Assembly (NCBI GenBank): GCA_937928595.1
Contig: CALGJV010000022.1
Location: forward strand, 62,001-126,000
Origin: an uncultured Phycisphaerae bacterium
Lineage (GTDB): Bacteria; Planctomycetota; Phycisphaerae; UBA1845; Fen-1342
Reading direction: 5' to 3'
Length of the DNA stretch: 64,000 nt
The translations under genes were made by a program, and so were the position numbers. Positions 1,417-34,711 of the stretch are shown here, piece after piece; positions within the stretch are counted from its first letter, which is position 1; every line of letters starts with the position of its first letter. The notes beneath the pieces are model-generated. The model saw only the letters and a program-made list of their open reading frames with translations. It had not been told where the DNA came from and made no database searches.

Positions 1417-4248
1417 ATGTTGTGGTTCGCCGTTGCAATTCCCTTCGTAGCAGCGCTCCTTCTGCCCTGGGCGGCGGCCCGGTGGGGCGGCGCGCTCGGC
1501 TGGGCGGCCGCCGCCGCGCCGCTCGCGGCCGGACTTGCACTCGTTGCGGCGCTGCCGCCCTACGATCCCGACGCGGAGCGCTGGCTGCCGGATGTTCGCG
1601 CCGTGGTGCCCTGGGTGCCCGATGTCGGCATCCACTTCGCGCTGCGCCTCGACGGCCTGTCGGCCACGTTCGCGCTGCTGATCGTCCTGGTCGGCACCCT
1701 CGTGGCCGTCTACGCCGGGGCCTACCTCGGCGATGACCCGCGCCGCGGCCGGTTCCTCGCCTATCTCGCGGGCTTCACCGGCGCGATGCTGGGGCTGGTG
1801 CTCTCCGACGACCTGTTCACGCTCTTCGTGTTCTGGGAACTCACGAGCGTCACGTCGTTCCTGCTGATCGGGTTCGACCACCGCAAGTCCGAGGCTCGGG
1901 CGGCCGCCCTGCAAGCGCTGCTGGTCACCGGCGCGGGGGGCCTGGCGCTGCTGGCCGGGTTCGTGCTCCTCCAGACGGCCGCGGCGAGCGCCGGGGTGCC
2001 GCCCGAGTACGCCGGACGAGTGTCGACGCTGATCGGCCTCGGGCCCGTCCCGGCCCCCGACCTTCGCGCGCAGGCGCTCTACATCCCCGCGCTGCTCCTC
2101 GTGCTCATCGGGGCCTTTACCAAGTCCGCGCACTTCCCCTTCCACTTCTGGCTGCCGGGCGCGATGGCCGCCCCGACGCCCGTCAGCGCGCTGCTGCACT
2201 CCGCGACCATGGTCAAGGCCGGCGTGTTTCTGCTCGCGCGCCTGGCCCCCGCGCTCGGCGGGACGGACCTTTGGCATTTCGTGGTCACCGGCGGCGGCGC
2301 CCTCACGATGCTGACCGGTGCGGTCCTCGCGGTCGGCCAGCACGACCTGAAGCGCATCCTCGCCTACACGACGGTCAGCGTGCTGGGCATCCTCACGATG
2401 CTGCTCGGGCCCGGCACCGACGCCGCCTTCAAGGCGCTCACCACCTTCCTCGTGGCGCACGCCCTTTACAAGGCCGCGCTGTTCCTCGTCGCCGGCAACA
2501 TCGACCACGCCACCGGCACGCGCGACGTCACCCGGCTCGGCGGGCTCATGCGGCTGCTGCCGCTGTCAGCCGCGGCCGGGCTGCTCGCGGCCCTCAGCCA
2601 GGCCGGTGCCCCGCCGCTGTTCGGGTTCCTCGGCAAAGAGCTGCTGTACGTCGCCAAGACGGACCTCGAAAGCGAGCTGCTCGTGGGCGTCGCGGTGGCG
2701 GCCAACATTCTTCTGACGGCGATGGCGCTGCAGGCCGGCGTACGGCCGTTCGTCGGCCAGCGGCATGAGACGCCGCATCCGCCGCACGAAGCGCCGCCGG
2801 CGATGTGGCTGGGGCCGCTCGTGCTGGGCGTCCTGGGCCTGCTCATCGGCCTGCTGCCGAAGTGGTTCGACGCCACCCTGGGCAGTGCGATGGCGACGGC
2901 GGTGGCCGGCCGCCCCCTCGTGCTCAAGCTCGCGCTGTGGCACGGGCTGAACCCCGAAGCGCTGGCCATCCTCGGCCTCAGCGCCGTGACACTCCTCGCC
3001 GGTTACGGAGTGTATCGCTGGCTGCGCCCGCGCGTGCGCACCGTGGGAGGCGTGGCACGCCGTCTTTCGCGCGTCGGACCGGAGGCGCTCTACAGCCGCC
3101 TACTCGACGGCGGACTGCGCGCGGCGCCGCGGCTCACCGAGCGGGTCTTCGCGCACCGCCCCCGTCACGATCTGCTGCTCTTCTTCACGGCGCTGGTCGC
3201 GCTACTGGGACTGGCGTTCCTCCAGGGCCTCACTTGGGGCGGCGCGCTGTTCGAGCCCGCCCCAGCGCTGCATGAACTGGGCCTGGCCGGACTCGCGCTG
3301 GCGGGGGCCTGCCTCACGGCTGCAGCCCCTTCGCATCTGGTCGCTATCGCGGCGCTCGGCCTGACGGGTACATCGGTCGCGCTGCTGTTCGCGCTCTACA
3401 GCGCGCCGGACCTCGCGCTTACGCTCTTCCTGACCGAGACGCTGACCGTCGTCCTGTTCGTCTTCGTGTTTCGACGCCTTCCGGAGCATCGGGCCCGCCG
3501 CAGCCGGCTGGAGCGCGGGCGAGATGCGCTCGTCGCGGGCCTGGGCGGGGCCACCCTCGCCGGGGTGCTGTTGGCCGCCGCCGGCGTGACGCCGCAACCG
3601 ACCGAGCTGTGGCGCTACTTCGCGGAGAAGAGCCTCCCCGAGGCCCTCGGACGCAACGTCGTCAACGTCATCCTCGTGGACTTCCGGGCCCTCGATACGC
3701 TGGGCGAGATCACCGTGCTCGTGATCGCGGGGCTCGGAGTGCTCGGGCTGGTGCACGTGCGGCCGCCGGCCGCCAACGGGGCCGGGCTTGCCTCCAAGCC
3801 CGCGACCGCGGCCCGCGGGCCGCTGCCGTCAATCATCCTGACCACGGCCGCGCGGCCCATCCTGCTGCTGCTGACCATGTTCTCGATCTTCATGCTCCTG
3901 CGCGGGCACAACGCGCCGGGCGGCGGGTTCATCGGCGGCCTCCTGGTGGCGGCCGGATTCGTCCTGTACATGCTCGCGGCCGGTCCGGCCGCCGCTCGGC
4001 ACGTGATAAGGACCTCTCTGGGCCGCTTCGCGGGGCTCGGTCTGGCAGTCGCGCTCGGCAGCGGGCTGGTCGCATGGTTGCTGGGCCGGCCGATCCTGAC
4101 GGGACTTTGGCTGCCGGTGCCCCTGCCGGGGCTCGGCAAGGTCGGCACGGTGCTGCTTTTCGACGTGGGCGTTTATCTCGTCGTGCTCGGGGCGGTCCTG
4201 GCGGTGCTGCTCACGCTCGCCGAACAATGGTCGGAGGAGCACGACTGA
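1417..4248 (+). CDS. mrpA: Na+/H+ antiporter MrpA-MrpB fusion (subunits A and B)
   Basis: Largest subunit of the multisubunit Mrp cation/proton antiporter in the cytoplasmic membrane; related to complex I NuoL. Of 943 residues, about 1-500 form the NuoL-like antiporter core. This includes the Glu-bearing helix [14 protein letters not shown] (about 133-146) and the [10 protein letters not shown]...[15 protein letters not shown] region (about 241-270). An MbhD-like segment ([15 protein letters not shown]) is near 658-672 and an MbhE-like segment ([20 protein letters not shown]) near 748-767. Residues about 806-941 are a complete MnhB/MrpB domain ([16 protein letters not shown]). Subunit B is normally a separate gene, so this is an A-B fusion. 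It heads an operon with subunits C to G, which supports the assignment. Confidence 0.95.
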
Positions 4249-4252
4249 CCCC

Positions 4253-4612
4253 ATGATCGCGATTCTGGCCATCACGGCGGGCGGGCTCTTCGCAGTCGGA
4301 GCGTATCTCCTGCTGACGCGCAGTGCCGTGCGCCTCGTGCTCGGGCTCGCGCTGCTGAGCCATGCCGCGCTGCTCTCGATCTTCGTTGCCGGCGGGCTCG
4401 TGCGCGCCAAACCGCCGCTCATCCCCGATGGCGCGATCGCGCCGCCGCCGGACGCGGCCGACGCCGTACCGCAGGCACTGATGCTCACCGCGATCGTCAT
4501 CAGTTTCGCGATCACGGCCTTCGCGGCGGTGCTGGTGCAGCAACTCGTCCGCGACGCCGGGCGGGACGAGTCGGACCCGCCGACGGCCCGCGACGCGGAG
4601 GACCGCGCATGA
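4253..4612 (+). CDS. mrpC: Na+/H+ antiporter subunit C
   Basis: NuoK-like small membrane subunit of the Mrp antiporter. The 119 residues hold three hydrophobic helices (about 4-22, 26-48 and 77-101). The typical family motifs are present: GAYLLLTRSAVRLVLGLALLSHA and the PQALMLTAIVISFAITAF stretch near the third helix. It starts 4 bases after mrpA-B ends and overlaps the ATG of mrpD by 4 bases, indicating translational coupling. The C-terminal tail is short and charged. Confidence 0.95.
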   Translation: MIAILAITAGGLFAVGAYLLLTRSAVRLVLGLALLSHAALLSIFVAGGLVRAKPPLIPDGAIAPPPDAADAVPQALMLTAIVISFAITAFAAVLVQQLVRDAGRDESDPPTARDAEDRA

Positions 4613-6162
4613 GCGTCCTCCTCGTCTTGCCGATCGTCCTGCCGCTCGCCACCGCCATACTCGGCCTCGTGCTGCCGCGTACGACGCGCGTCCAGCAGTC
4701 CGTCGCGGCCACCGGCGCCGTCGCGCATGCGCTGGCGGCCGCAGCCCTTCTGGCGGCGGTGGCCCGACACGGCGTACAGGCCGTACAGGCCGGCGGTTGG
4801 CCGGCGCCGTTCGGCATCACGCTGGTCGCGGATCTCACCAGTGCGCTGCTCGTGCTCCTGACCGGCGTCCTGGGCGTCGCGGTGACGGTCTACGCCCTGG
4901 CGGATGTGGATGCGGCGCGGCACCGCCGGGCGTTCCTGCCGGTGCTGCAAGTCCTCATCATGGGCGTCAGCGGCACGTTTCTGACCGGCGACCTGTTCAA
5001 TCTCTATGTCTGGTTCGAGGTTCTACTGCTGGCGAGCTTTGTGCTGCTGACACTGGGCGGCGAGCGCGCTCAGTTGCGAGCGGGCTTCCACTACGTCGCG
5101 CTGAACCTGGCGGGGTCCACCGTGTTCCTGATTGCCGCCGGGCTGGTGTACGGCAGCGCGCAGAGCCTGAATTTCGCCGACCTGGCGACCCGCCTGCCGG
5201 CCCTCCACGCGGAGCGGCCGCAGCTCGTCCTCGCGCTGGCGTTCCTGCTGCTCGTCGCGTTCGGGCTGAAGGCGGCGGTGTTTCCCCTCGGTTCGTGGGT
5301 TCCCCAGGCGTACCCCGCGCCGCCCGCTGCCGTCGCCGCGATCTTCGCCGGGATTCTCACGAAGGTAGGCGTATACGCTCTGCTGCGCGTGTTCACGCTG
5401 TGCTTCCCCCCCTTGCCGGCGCTGCAAGCCCTCCTGCTGTGGCTCGCCGGACTGACGATGGTTCTCGGCGTGATCGGTGCCGTGGCCCAGACCGATCTGC
5501 GCCGCGTTCTCGCGTTCCACAGCATCAGCCAGATCGGTTACATGCTGCTGGCCACGGCGCTCGTCGCCGGGGCGAGCCCGACGGCGCGCCCGGTCGCCGT
5601 CGTCGCCGTGCTGGTCTTCATGGTCCACCATGGCCTCGTCAAGAGCAATCTGTTCCTCGTCAGCGGCGCGGTCGGCACGCTCCGCGGCACGACACGCCTC
5701 CAGCCGCTCGGCGGTCTCGCCGGCGGCGCGCCGCTGCTGGCGGGGCTCTTCTTCGTCGCGGCCCTGAGCCTGGCGGGATTGCCGCCGCTGTCCGGCTTCT
5801 GGGCCAAGCTGACGGTCGTACAGGCGAGCTTCGGGGCCCGGCAGTGGGTGCTCGCCGCGGCTGCGCTGGGCACCGGCCTGTTGACCCTGCTGAGCATGGT
5901 GAAGATCTGGAACGAAGCATTCTGGAAAGCACCGCCGATCGAGCCGGCCGCACCCGCGCCGCCGCTGCGCGCGGCCCGCTGCGGCCCGATCATCGGACTC
6001 GTCGTTCTGACGGCGGCCCTGGGCCTGTGGCCCGCTCCGCTCCTGGACCTCGCCCGTCGGGCGGCTGACCAACTGCTCGCGCGCCAGGCGTACATCGACG
6101 CCGTCGGACTCGCCCGTCCGTTCGCGGCCGCCCCTCCGACCGTTGCGGAGGCCGCCCCTTGA
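4609..6162 (+). CDS. mrpD: Na+/H+ antiporter subunit D
   Basis: NuoN/NuoM-like proton-translocating subunit of Mrp, 517 residues with about 14 predicted helices. Visible family features are FNLYVWFEVLLLASFVLLT (about 129-147), GLKAAVFPLGSWVPQAYPAPP (about 219-239), QTDLRRVLAFHSISQIGYML (about 293-312) and LAGLPPLSGFWAKL (about 386-399). The conserved Glu and Lys residues expected for proton transfer lie in the first two. Its start overlaps mrpC and its stop overlaps mrpE by 4 bases. The length is normal for MrpD. Confidence 0.95.
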   Translation: MSVLLVLPIVLPLATAILGLVLPRTTRVQQSVAATGAVAHALAAAALLAAVARHGVQAVQAGGWPAPFGITLVADLTSALLVLLTGVLGVAVTVYALADVDAARHRRAFLPVLQVLIMGVSGTFLTGDLFNLYVWFEVLLLASFVLLTLGGERAQLRAGFHYVALNLAGSTVFLIAAGLVYGSAQSLNFADLATRLPALHAERPQLVLALAFLLLVAFGLKAAVFPLGSWVPQAYPAPPAAVAAIFAGILTKVGVYALLRVFTLCFPPLPALQALLLWLAGLTMVLGVIGAVAQTDLRRVLAFHSISQIGYMLLATALVAGASPTARPVAVVAVLVFMVHHGLVKSNLFLVSGAVGTLRGTTRLQPLGGLAGGAPLLAGLFFVAALSLAGLPPLSGFWAKLTVVQASFGARQWVLAAAALGTGLLTLLSMVKIWNEAFWKAPPIEPAAPAPPLRAARCGPIIGLVVLTAALGLWPAPLLDLARRAADQLLARQAYIDAVGLARPFAAAPPTVAEAAP

Positions 6163-12012: not shown

Positions 12013-12084
12013 AGCCGATGGAGGGAGTTGAACCCTCAACCCCGGCTTTACGAAAGCCGTGCTCTGCCATTGAGCTACATCGGC
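12013..12084 (-). tRNA. tRNA-Thr (anticodon CGT)
   Basis: Read on the minus strand, 72 nt fold into a standard cloverleaf. The acceptor stem is GCCGATG/CATCGGC with discriminator T, the D-stem is GCTC/GAGC, and the anticodon stem CGGCT/AGCCG carries the loop TTCGTAA. The variable loop has 5 nt and the T-stem GAGGG/CCCTC has the loop TTCAACT. The anticodon CGT reads the threonine codon ACG. CCA is not encoded after the discriminator. It stands alone, and no integrase or attachment-site duplication is visible next to it. Confidence 0.97.
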
Positions 12085-28566: not shown

Positions 28567-30032
28567 CAGTCCGTTGTAGAAGTCGTCTTGCCGCGCTCGC
28601 TTACGCGGCAAGCGCCGATTCGGGCCAGCGGCCGGGTTTATCTGCAGATCGCGCGCAGAGGCGATTGTCAAGACCGCAACGACGCGCCAGAGCGCGTAGC
28701 CAGCCGGCGCAGGCGAAGCCGCCGCCCGGGCCGCGTCCACCCAGCCCCGCGGCGTCCCGTGGCCGGTCCGCTTCCGCATCAGCAGCCCCAGAGTGAAGCC
28801 GGCGATGTGGATCACGCAGCGTTTCGCGATCTTCTCCCGCCCCTTCAGCCAGACCCGCCGCATGCCTCCATCGTCCAACGCGTGTTCGAACGTCCGTTCC
28901 ACCTATTCGCCGCGCCGCCGATGCAAGCGTTTGGAGCGCGCCCCGCGCCGCCGCCGCCGGTTGCGGTCCACCGCCTGCTGCGCGCGACGCTTGTATTCCT
29001 GCTCATCCGGATCGTCCGCCATGCAACACTGCCGCCCGCGGTCCGGCTCCGCAATGCAGCCGCGAATGTCCAGCTCTTCCAGGTTCACGAGCGTCCGGGC
29101 ACTGTGGTACCCCTTGTCCTGAACCGTGGCCTGAATGTGCCGTTGCTCTTGCGGAGCCGGCCCCCCCGTTGGCCTGACAGGTCGCCTGCCCCTGAGCGTC
29201 TTCGCGGACATCCTGGAGCGAGGTCGCCGCCTTTTCCAGCGTGCCCCACATCGTGGTCGTGTGGCCTTCGTTCGCCAAGTGAATCTCCGCCGCCACGATC
29301 GCGCGCGTGTCCAGGTCCACCGCGTGCTCGTTCTTATCGGCGAAATGCACGGCCGTCCTTCATTTTGGTGATCTTGGCCTCGGGATCGTTCGGGTTGAAC
29401 CAGTCGTCGTTGCTGGTACGCTTGTCCTTCCGCTGGCGATCGAACTTCGCCAGCTGTTCCGCCGTCGGCGTTTCAATCCCCGACGCCTTCGCCAACTCCG
29501 TCAGGAACTCGCGATAGCTCTGCCCGCTGTCCCGCCGCACGATCGACTTCAGCGCCGCATCCGCTTCCAGCGTGCTGGCATCGATGCCCAGGGTCTGGCC
29601 TTTCAATAAGCCCTGTTCCCTCAAGCGCTCGAGCACCCAGTCGAAGACCGCCTGGTGCGTCTCCAGGTCGATCCGGTTCCGCGTCCGCGACAGGCTGGAA
29701 TGGTCCGGCGTGCCCTCGTCCACCCGGTAGCCCAGGAAGGCCCGCAACGCCAGCGAGTCCGCACACCGCCAGGCGATCTCGCGCTCGCTGTCGAGCTTTT
29801 CGAAGTAGCCCAGCAGCCGCATGCGGAAGTACACCCCCGGCGGAATCGAGGGCCGCCCCAGGGTGGCGGCGTAGAACTGCTGGCAGCTGGCCTAGCAGAA
29901 CAGATCGAACCCGGCCGCCGCCAGCAGGGCGTTGAGCTGCTGGTAGAACGCGTGGGCCGGCGCGGGGGCCAGCCGGTCCGTCGCGATCCACAAGTCCGCC
30001 TGCCGTTGCGCGGGCCGCTGTCCCATCGCCAT
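28567..30032 (-). pseudogene. IS1182-family transposase pseudogene
   Basis: DDE-type transposase in pieces. It begins at the ATG of MAMGQRPAQRQADL, after GGAGG. An in-frame TAG follows after AGFDLFC (near 29,893). The core then reads RMRLLGYFEKLDSEREIAWR, GIDASTLEADAALKSIVRRD and the RKDKRTSNDDWFNPNDPEAK segment typical of IS1182. A frameshift near 29,345 moves to ADKNEHAVDLDTRAI (second catalytic Asp), another near 29,200 to VQDKGYHSARTL. A second TAG before VERTFEHALDDGGMRR removes the region with the last catalytic Glu. Two stops and two frameshifts mean it is inactive. Confidence 0.85.
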
Positions 30033-30115
30033 GACGCCATCCTCCGTGACCATTCGATCGGGCCGTATTCTAGCATTCCTAGTTCATGCGGTCCAGCGAC
30101 TCTTGCAACGGACTG
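28567..30115 (-). mobile_element. IS1182-like insertion sequence, decayed
   Basis: Terminal inverted repeats of 19 nt match at 16 positions (CAGTCCGTTGTAGAAGTCG at the left; CAGTCCGTTGCAAGAGTCG read inward from the right), with one transposase gene on the minus strand between them. No convincing target-site duplication is visible in the flanks, which suggests later change or deletion on one side. The element interrupts an acetyltransferase gene and abuts a degenerate repeat on the right. It is about 1.55 kb, the expected size of the family. Confidence 0.82.
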
Positions 30116-32225: not shown

Positions 32226-32262
32226 AAAAAAGCGACGCGAGGAACAGCGAACCGCTCGTCCG
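32226..32262 (-). terminator. Probable 3' end of the structured RNA
   Basis: On the minus strand, an AGCG-GTT-CGCT hairpin and a looser outer pairing (GACGAG with CTCGCGTC) are followed by GCTTTTTTC, six U residues at 32,231-32,226. It also faces the plus-strand lipoprotein gene. Confidence 0.45.
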
Positions 32263-32266
32263 ACCC

Positions 32267-32355
32267 TTCAGAGTATTCGGTCACGTTGCTCGCACCACCG
32301 GCGTTCCCGCCGCGGCGCGTCCGCTCGGAATTAGCTGCCCGTTCAGAGTATCCGG
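32267..32355. repeat. Direct repeat of a 14-mer, 75 bp apart
   Basis: TTCAGAGTATTCGG at 32,267-32,280 and TTCAGAGTATCCGG at 32,342-32,355 differ at one base. Both are A+T-rich for this genome and lie within the 3' part of the RNA-like unit. Confidence 0.5.
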
Positions 32356-33296
32356 CCCGTCGAAGTACCGCGGTCATGGGTTCCGCGATCCCGCTCTGCC
32401 GTTGGCCGTTTCCCCGGCTGTGCGGTGTTTCCTCGACGCGCTGCGCCAGCCACAGTTAAGCGACCGGTGCGTCCTCTCTTCGGGTTTCGCGTTCCTCCAG
32501 CGTCTTGCCCAACGTGCCCTAGCCAACCCGCCGCAGCGAACCGGCTCCTCTCATGGGCTTTCGTTCCCTTCAGCACTCGCGGGTTCGGAGGTCCACAGTC
32601 CGCGGGCTTTGCCTGCCCGCTCCGTTCCGCCCTCAGGGTTTGGCTACCCTCTCGGCGGCTTACTCCCTCCGAGCCCCTGCCGGCTCTTTTTCACGCCGGC
32701 GGCGCTCTTGGGATTCACCCTTCGGAGCTTCCTCCTCCCGGAAGGTATCCGCCGCGTTTCCGCGGGGAAGGGCCCACATACCGTTTCTCCTGCCGGTTTT
32801 CCCGCCGCCGAAGCGGTAGGCCGGCCCAGCAGGCCGCGGTTCCTGGGCTTCAACCCTTCCGGGAGTCCCTGGCGACCGGACGCAGGATTAGTACGCCGAC
32901 CGCTGGCTGCTCCCTTGGGCTTCGCCCTTCCAGGGTTCCCCAGCGAAGGCCTGGCCCGGGATTTCGCCCGGACTCCTCCCACGCGCTTCCGCGAACACCG
33001 AGCCTCACGGCCCGGAGACGCCGGCGCCTCGGAGTCTCAATCAGCCCTCGCCCGGTCCCACCCACGCCACCCGGCAAACCGGGTTCGACGGGCGGAACGA
33101 CCCTCATAGGGTTCTGGCACCGGGACGCTCCCGACCGTTCGAGCCAGCCGCCATCCGGGCTATGTGTTCACCTCGCGCCGTGCCGTACATCGCTGCCGAC
33201 TACCGACGCTCTTTGGATGACGGACCTCGCTCTGCCGGAGCCGCTCGGGACAGTCCTGAGGTGCCGAGCGTTCGCGACCTCAACGTCGCAAGAGCA

Positions 33297-33325
33297 AATA
33301 TAGCCGCGCTTTGCGCGAGTGCCAA
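33297..33325 (-). promoter_or_regulatory. Near-consensus sigma-70-type promoter for the structured RNA
   Basis: Read on the minus strand, TTGGCA (33,325-33,320), a 17-bp spacer and TATATT (33,302-33,297) each match the consensus at five of six positions. Transcription would begin near 33,290, at the edge of the hairpin-rich element. It is the best -35/-10 pair I found in the window. Confidence 0.6.
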
Positions 33326-33643: not shown

Positions 33644-34711
33644 ATGACCAGCCGCGAGATTGTCAAACGCGCGATCACCTTCCAGAACCCGCCGCGCTTG
33701 CCCATGAAGTTCGACATCGTCGGCGTCAACGACTGCTACGACGTCTGGACGATCGATCCGACCGGCTGGGAGTGGGGCTTCAAGGGTCGCACCGTCGACG
33801 AATGGGGTTGCGTCTGGGGCGTCACCGACGTCTCCAACACCGGCCAGGTCATTGAGCACCCGCTGGCAGACATCACGCAACTCAAGCACTATCGCTGGCC
33901 CGACCCGGATGACCCGCGCCGTTACAAGGGCTTCGCCGAACAGATGGCCGGGGCCGGCGAGAAGTTCGTCATGTTCTGCTTTGGGCAGGGCATCTGGGAG
34001 CGGCTGCACATGCTGCTCGGCATGGACAAGGCGATGCTCGCGTTTGTGCGGCACAAGGACGAAGTCCACGAGATTCTCGATCACGTGCTCGACCACCACA
34101 TCCGCGTGCTGCGGCGCTGCCATGAAATCGCCGGCGGGCGGCTCGACGCGGCCGCGATGGCCGACGACTGGGGCGTGCAGGACCGGGCGTTTGTGAGCCC
34201 GAAGATGTTCCGCGAGTTCTTCAAGCCGCGCTACGCGAAGTGGTTCGCGGCGATCAAGGAGCTCGGGCTGCACACGTGGATGCACTCCTGCGGGAGGATC
34301 AACACGATCGTCCCCGAACTCATCGAATGCGGCCTGGAGGTAATCAACAATCAGCAGCCGAACACGGTCGGCCTGCGCGAGTTCGGTGCCGCCTTCCGGG
34401 GCAAGATCTGCTTCGAGGCCATCGTGGACACGCAGAACACGCTGCCCCGCGGCACCTACGACGAAATCCGCCAGCAGGCGTACGACATCATCGAGTACTA
34501 CGGGACGCCGCAGGGCGGCCTGATCGCCAGCGACTACAACGACGCCGAGGCGATCGGGGTCACAACCGACCGCCGGTACGTCATGTTCGAAGCGTTCGCC
34601 TCGCGCGGGAACTACCCCAACTACCAGGAAATCCTGGAGCGCGCCCGGCGTGGCGAGGTGGAGCGCGGCCACCTGTGGGGCCGGGCCACCGAGACGGCCT
34701 CGCCGACGTAG
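33644..34711 (+). CDS. Uroporphyrinogen decarboxylase (URO-D) family protein
   Basis: 355 residues, TIM barrel of the URO-D/corrinoid methyltransferase superfamily. Visible segments are MADDWGVQDRAFVSPKMFREF (about 168-188), HTWMHSCGRINTIVPELIECG (about 206-226, with the HSCG metal-type motif) and the INNQQPNTVGLREFG region. The N-terminal Arg-rich decarboxylase motif of HemE is absent. It is probably a methyltransferase-like or unassigned member, as is usual for the expanded planctomycete set, and not the heme enzyme. It is followed by dapF after 82 bases. Confidence 0.85.
   Translation: MTSREIVKRAITFQNPPRLPMKFDIVGVNDCYDVWTIDPTGWEWGFKGRTVDEWGCVWGVTDVSNTGQVIEHPLADITQLKHYRWPDPDDPRRYKGFAEQMAGAGEKFVMFCFGQGIWERLHMLLGMDKAMLAFVRHKDEVHEILDHVLDHHIRVLRRCHEIAGGRLDAAAMADDWGVQDRAFVSPKMFREFFKPRYAKWFAAIKELGLHTWMHSCGRINTIVPELIECGLEVINNQQPNTVGLREFGAAFRGKICFEAIVDTQNTLPRGTYDEIRQQAYDIIEYYGTPQGGLIASDYNDAEAIGVTTDRRYVMFEAFASRGNYPNYQEILERARRGEVERGHLWGRATETASPT

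Follow-up and report, generated by a model that had tools for sequence, protein, structure and literature searches.

What does the intergenic kilobase at positions 32226 to 33325 encode? It lies within the window, the whole 64,000-nt stretch of DNA analyzed here (G000:C22:62001-126000, from a source genome of 3.69 Mb), and the original prediction assigned it to a long structured RNA of about 1 kb. That assignment holds up: in a full-length alignment of homologues both ends of the unit are conserved, covariation is strong, and the reading frames are noncoding. From this comparative evidence, the locus is almost certainly a genuine noncoding RNA gene that stands alone and whose product is structured and conserved. 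The RNA proper spans 1,065 nt, from 33290 (5′ end) to 32226 (3′ end) on the minus strand; the remainder of the predicted extent (33291-33325) is promoter and lies outside the RNA. A divergent gene for a URO-D-like protein (33644-34711, plus strand; Pfam URO-D, 3e-14) lies outside the RNA gene and is not a conserved neighbor. Overlapping minus-strand ORFs at about 28900-30080, some 2 kb away from the RNA's 3′ end, have the look of a broken transposase, perhaps IS1182-like.

Nucleotide homologues were found across the home order and in other classes. In a blastn sample of 61 genomes (the source genome and 60 relatives), matches were returned in 37, of which 36 are real; a 41-nt match in G030 was rejected, being without covariance-model support. 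In the closer relatives the match spans from just past the -10 box through the U-tract, which marks the transcript itself as the conserved unit. A covariance model built on the core region 32560-32718, referred to as R1, detected the RNA in 47 of the 114 genomes of the home order (Phycisphaerae), at one copy each; it was missing from all sampled genomes that belong to the same class but not to that order. Elsewhere in the Planctomycetota it was found in 32 of about 245 sampled genomes, from 11 families of other classes. Scanning 84,980 species for the exact core motif, a narrow pattern, returned 30 contigs, all from planctomycete MAGs and mostly labelled Phycisphaerae, so the earlier suggestion of conservation in many phyla is unsupported. 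Two genomes of 12.3 and 9.3 Mb, G318 (L125, L129) and G417 (L140, L143), carry two copies each.

The distribution within the order is patchy, and the RNA is therefore not essential in general. It also has no universal gene neighbor; its neighbors are clade-specific and include PhoH2, rnpA, recA, and others. In six genomes of one family (L027, L028-L030, L033, and L034), the RNA has upstream, on the opposite strand, a gene from a single cluster, whose L027 member (3571-5298) was identified as the RNase P protein gene rnpA; the neighbor in L166 is recA. Patchiness and changing neighbors are what a mobile intron or other selfish element would produce. However, the gene is chromosomal, intergenic, present as a single copy in nearly every carrier, equipped with its own promoter, and free of any associated ORF. 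It carries no intron signature and had no match in the collections of viral contigs, phages, and plasmids that we searched, making a selfish origin very improbable. A group I or group II intron was rejected specifically, given the lack of an Rfam match, the intergenic position, and the RNA's own promoter and terminator.

Searching the whole window against Rfam 15 at the gathering cut-off returned nothing besides a tRNA. This sole tRNA match (12013-12084, minus strand, 69.7 bits) is far from the RNA gene. Across the RNA region itself, a search at E ≤ 5 gave one chance match only, and of 13 homologue loci (12 in other classes) none matched a family. The prediction that the RNA would fit none of OLE, GOLLD, ROOL, and HEARO was thus correct, and the same result extends to the intron families. 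Neither the RNA nor the repeated homopurine module described below was found in open-access full text. The RNA is likely absent from earlier records, as far as these are represented by Rfam and open-access text.

Both ends of the gene are well defined. The predicted minus-strand promoter, TTGGCA-17-TATATT (33325-33297), keeps its register in 36 homologues, with the -35 box (TTGGCA, 33320-33325) appearing as TTGNC/TTGCC and the -10 box (TATATT, 33297-33302) lying 5-6 nt before the RNA. This places a σ70-type promoter 5-6 nt ahead of the first conserved base, and its match score over the 36 homologues was 8.5 out of 12, compared with 6.5 ± 1.0 for shuffles. Immediately downstream, the first ~12 nt of the RNA (33278-33289) form a closing helix, P1, with the last ~11 nt (32232-32242), and this consensus pairing is kept in distant members despite sequence change. 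The U-tract follows at 32226-32231, and all 43 homologues have at least four T within 8 nt after P1. The original prediction had paired a hairpin, AGCG-GTT-CGCT, with U6. The U6 is present at 32231-32226, but the hairpin is 14 nt away from it. Directly before the U-tract is instead the 3′ strand of P1, the only strong stem adjoining it, whose partner is the extreme 5′ end of the RNA.

Because the U-tract lies right behind P1 in 43 of 43 sequences, and because the P1 duplex is stronger than any fold inside the last 30 nt in 42 of 43, the terminator stem is probably P1 itself, with the two extreme ends of the RNA as its strands. Termination may then depend on pairing between the 5′ end and the nascent 3′ end, in which case proper ends would be given to folded molecules only. 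An identical layout is found at L118, from a distant class: TTGACA-17-TATACT, the P1 helix, 1,064 nt, and then T7.

The original prediction also held that the stretch has no credible gene, and the comparison of homologues agrees. Candidate frames on both strands are broken in most homologues, one short antisense frame excepted, leaving no conserved open frame at the sequence level. Among 46 sequences, every candidate frame has about 90% of its indels in lengths not divisible by three, and substitutions are flat across the three codon positions, with no codon periodicity. The exception, at 32553-32819, is open in 41 sequences; since 139 of its 153 indels are frame-breaking, its openness reflects composition. 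An opposite-strand protein gene (the "FLGFNPSGSPW" reading) has in its favor that antisense ORFs of 292 and 627 aa are open in the source genome. However, these frames stay open in only 6 and 3 of the 46 homologues, respectively, and the indel pattern indicates that the antisense "proteins" are spurious. With frames unconserved, indels not in threes, and periodicity absent, we rejected a protein gene in either the sense or the antisense orientation, and the antisense reading in particular is next to impossible.

The fold of the RNA was derived with RNAalifold from 43 non-redundant sequences, giving a consensus of 309 pairs. We scored all ~566,000 column pairs for covariation against a tree-based null in which the observed substitutions were re-thrown. 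Twenty-two column pairs scored above every null score; 19 of these are predicted pairs, and the other three lie no more than two positions from one. As a further check, we applied the earlier structure, made from 36 home-order sequences, to loci of other classes, none of which had contributed to it. These loci formed 65% standard pairs, compared with 40-48% when the partners were slid, and the core helices were 83-99% paired.

The overall plan consists of P1 (33289-33278 with 32242-32232), P2, and then domains I-V, all on the minus strand. Domain I, the 5′ domain (33117-33264), contains a near-invariant AGGUGAACNCAUAGCCC loop and a GNRA loop. It aligns poorly in other classes, where its fold may differ from that in the home order. 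Domains II (32925-33111) and III (32717-32920) are defined by the alignment fold and covariation, and domain V (32263-32558) by these together with out-of-sample pairing. Domain IV (32565-32713) is the most conserved core and the source region of R1; its core helices are 97-99% paired out of sample. Several variable tips retain GNRA or UUCG-type loops.

The minus strand folds strongly (z = -3.8; plus strand, z = -1.75). Most of the "perfect hairpins" reported earlier are not conserved helices. The ACCCT/AGGGT hairpin (33112-33100) turns out to supply a single strand of a long-range helix, interrupted by an internal loop, and to pair with about 32925-32935. The CGGGA/TCCCG hairpin (33,121-33,133) is split between long-range helices, and CCCGG/CCGGG (33083-33070) sits in a variable tip. 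Local GGGxGAAxCCC hairpins between domains were likewise rejected because their fourth base pair covaries with a long-range partner. Neither covariation outside the nested fold nor conserved complementarity, both of which we examined, supported any pseudoknot or loop-loop contact.

Within domain I (33116-33290, minus strand), a 9-nt loop, GAACNCAUA, flanked by AGG and UAGCCC, is nearly invariant across families and is a candidate protein- or ligand-binding site. A tRNA- or tmRNA-like reading of this domain (CUCCGGUAGAGC, CUCGAAC) was dropped, as the D-stem-like pairing is not conserved in the alignment. Domain IV has diverged in L019 and L031, which have lower R1 scores and an altered GGGAGNAA linker and keep the GAGGGU...AAACCCU hairpin. 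A second, weaker R1 match adjoins the main one inside one RNA at L113 (3854-3992, 42.7 bits) and at other loci too, which suggests that the RNA contains domains that arose by internal duplication.

The fold is deeply conserved, and loops in domain I (AGGUGAACNCAUAGCCC) and in the domain IV core are nearly invariant, as could be expected of a large ribozyme or other catalytic RNA. We consider this improbable, given that none of the Rfam families for ribozymes, group I/II introns, or RNase P matched the RNA and that no compact invariant catalytic core was recognized. Replacement of RNase P RNA was rejected: RF00010 matches only G000:C3 in the source genome, and this is an ordinary RNase P RNA.

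The consensus also contains nine 3 × 3 internal loops of an unusual kind. Each has A·A or G·G at both border positions, which switch jointly, and a free middle position. In the source genome, the 5′ and 3′ sides of these loops (minus strand) are AUG 33105-33107 and GGA 32929-32931 (loop 1); GAG 33028-33030 and GUG 32980-32982 (loop 2); AAG 32914-32916 and GAA 32721-32723 (loop 3); GGA 32841-32843 and AUG 32777-32779 (loop 4); AAG 32707-32709 and GAA 32569-32571 (loop 5); GAG 32651-32653 and GAG 32632-32634 (loop 6); GGA 32496-32498 and a shortened side near 32326-32327 (loop 7); AAG 32478-32480 and GAA 32342-32344 (loop 8); and ACA 32419-32421 and AGA 32395-32397 (loop 9). Over the nine loops, the inner border is G·G in 247 cases and A·A in 112, with A·G in 0 and G·A in 3; the outer border is A·A in 210 and G·G in 143, with A·G in 4 and G·A in 1. 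Thus, 8 mixed A/G cells were observed, compared with 134 expected for independent columns, and parsimony places the number of A·A/G·G switches at about 58. When all column pairs of the RNA were searched for A·A/G·G exchange, 11 were returned, 8 of them from the 3 × 3 loops.

The same pattern holds in other classes, which were not used in its discovery (inner border: G·G 143, A·A 48, mixed 2; outer border: A·A 98, G·G 88, mixed 4). The alignment used sequence alone, so the pattern is not imposed by the method. Ninefold A·A/G·G covariation amounts to a rare natural experiment in non-Watson-Crick isostericity, one that should be useful for RNA 3D prediction.

The size of the RNA, its GNRA- and UUCG-capped arms, and its conserved joints resemble those of OLE, ROOL, and GOLLD, all of which have been shown to form homo-oligomers (PMC12286853). 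By analogy, the RNA might self-assemble into a homo-oligomer or cage for which protein is not needed. However, conserved loop-loop complementarity and covariation outside the nested fold, either of which could mark such contacts, were not found. The RNA is also chromosomal rather than phage- or plasmid-borne, and its linkage to PhoH2 in the home order points to a protein partner. Overall, we regard self-assembly of this kind as unlikely.

PhoH2 is a widely conserved enzyme whose role is unclear. A PhoH2 gene (PIN_4 + PhoH) adjoins the RNA gene upstream and codirectionally in 15 genomes of three families. In the source genome, as in others, the two are unlinked, with PhoH2 on a different contig, yet both are retained; in five home-family genomes that lack the RNA, PhoH2 is also missing. 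Among the 114 genomes of the order, 39 have both, 8 have only the RNA, 2 have only PhoH2, and 65 have neither. Some of the RNA-only and PhoH2-only cases are fragmented MAGs (e.g., G515 beside its near-twin G037), and no PhoH2 was detectable in the RNA-only genomes G032 and G036, which are single contigs.

We examined this association on an RpoB tree of 100 genomes, with PhoH2 as the one gene covered by the co-occurrence test. Dependent evolution was favored over independent evolution by the Pagel test (LR 61, p 1.7e-12), and the observed phi of 0.82 was reached by none of 5,000 independent simulations. Of at least 16 changes in the RNA and at least 14 in PhoH2, 10 fell on the same branch in the same direction. 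The RNA gene is gained and lost together with PhoH2 in the home order; the co-loss could come partly from a shared third factor or from the two genes being deleted together where they are linked. No such association is seen beyond the order: at E<1e-60, PhoH2 matches were found in 10 of 32 genomes with the RNA and 52 of 213 without it. Since PhoH2 does not track the RNA in this phylum-wide sample, it was rejected as an obligatory partner.

The fitted dependent model puts the loss rate of PhoH2 about ninefold higher in the absence of the RNA, and only 2 of the 41 PhoH2-bearing genomes of the order lack the RNA. Both observations are compatible with an RNA that restrains PhoH2 as a decoy or antitoxin-like partner of a PIN-nuclease/helicase. 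One report (PMC7390352) describes the mycobacterial PhoH2 as an ATP-dependent RNA helicase and RNase and as a toxin-antitoxin protein, which fits the same idea. Nevertheless, the RNA persists without PhoH2 in many families and in eight genomes of the order, PhoH2 often occurs in the phylum where the RNA is missing, and an elaborate 1-kb fold exceeds what a decoy would need. Restraint of PhoH2 therefore appears distinctly unlikely.

On balance, and arguing from comparative analysis, we lean toward a large RNA scaffold of a new class whose fate in the home order involves PhoH2. The RNA itself would be the product, serving as the large, rigid scaffold of a stable RNP or of an RNA-only particle. 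The nine homopurine modules would serve as structural joints and fix how the arms are arranged in space, and in the home order PhoH2 may act on the RNA or together with it, by remodelling or trimming. More tentatively, and with slightly less than even confidence, the RNA can be described as a kilobase-scale RNA machine of a new class, with nine non-canonical 3 × 3 A·A/G·G modules, an end formed by its own 5′-3′ helix, and a PhoH2 partner in one order. Its co-evolution with PhoH2 provides a direct, testable hypothesis for the substrate of that enzyme. The RNA has a well-defined fold, is missing from Rfam, and occurs widely in a phylum whose cell biology is unusual.

To our knowledge, very few non-rRNA bacterial RNAs near 1 kb have been described, and OLE, ROOL, and GOLLD each opened unexpected biology. 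RNase P RNA and the group I/II introns share with the present RNA a large multi-domain fold, and it matches none of them in Rfam. HEARO and raiA-motif RNAs are likewise large structured bacterial RNAs; the planctomycete RNA is much larger, matches neither in Rfam, and has no recognized HEARO-type nuclease gene among the neighbors examined. OLE RNA, from extremophilic Firmicutes, is also large and structured and works with proteins (PMC12286853), but it is 577 nt rather than 1,065 nt, belongs to a different phylum, and gives no Rfam match here; no OLE-type protein partners were recognized among the neighbors examined. ROOL and GOLLD are similar in size range (659 nt to over 800 nt), in their many arms, and in being noncoding. 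They are phage and prophage RNAs found near tRNA islands (PMC12286853), whereas the planctomycete RNA had no counterpart in the phage, plasmid, and viral collections that we searched and does not match the model of either. The mycobacterial PhoH2 (PIN-PhoH) systems involve the same protein family, an RNA helicase plus RNase, but the partner named in the available part of that account is a small protein, PhoAT, and no large RNA partner is described there. The broad kind, a large structured bacterial RNA, is already known, whereas this particular class, with its recurrent module and its partner, appears not to have been.
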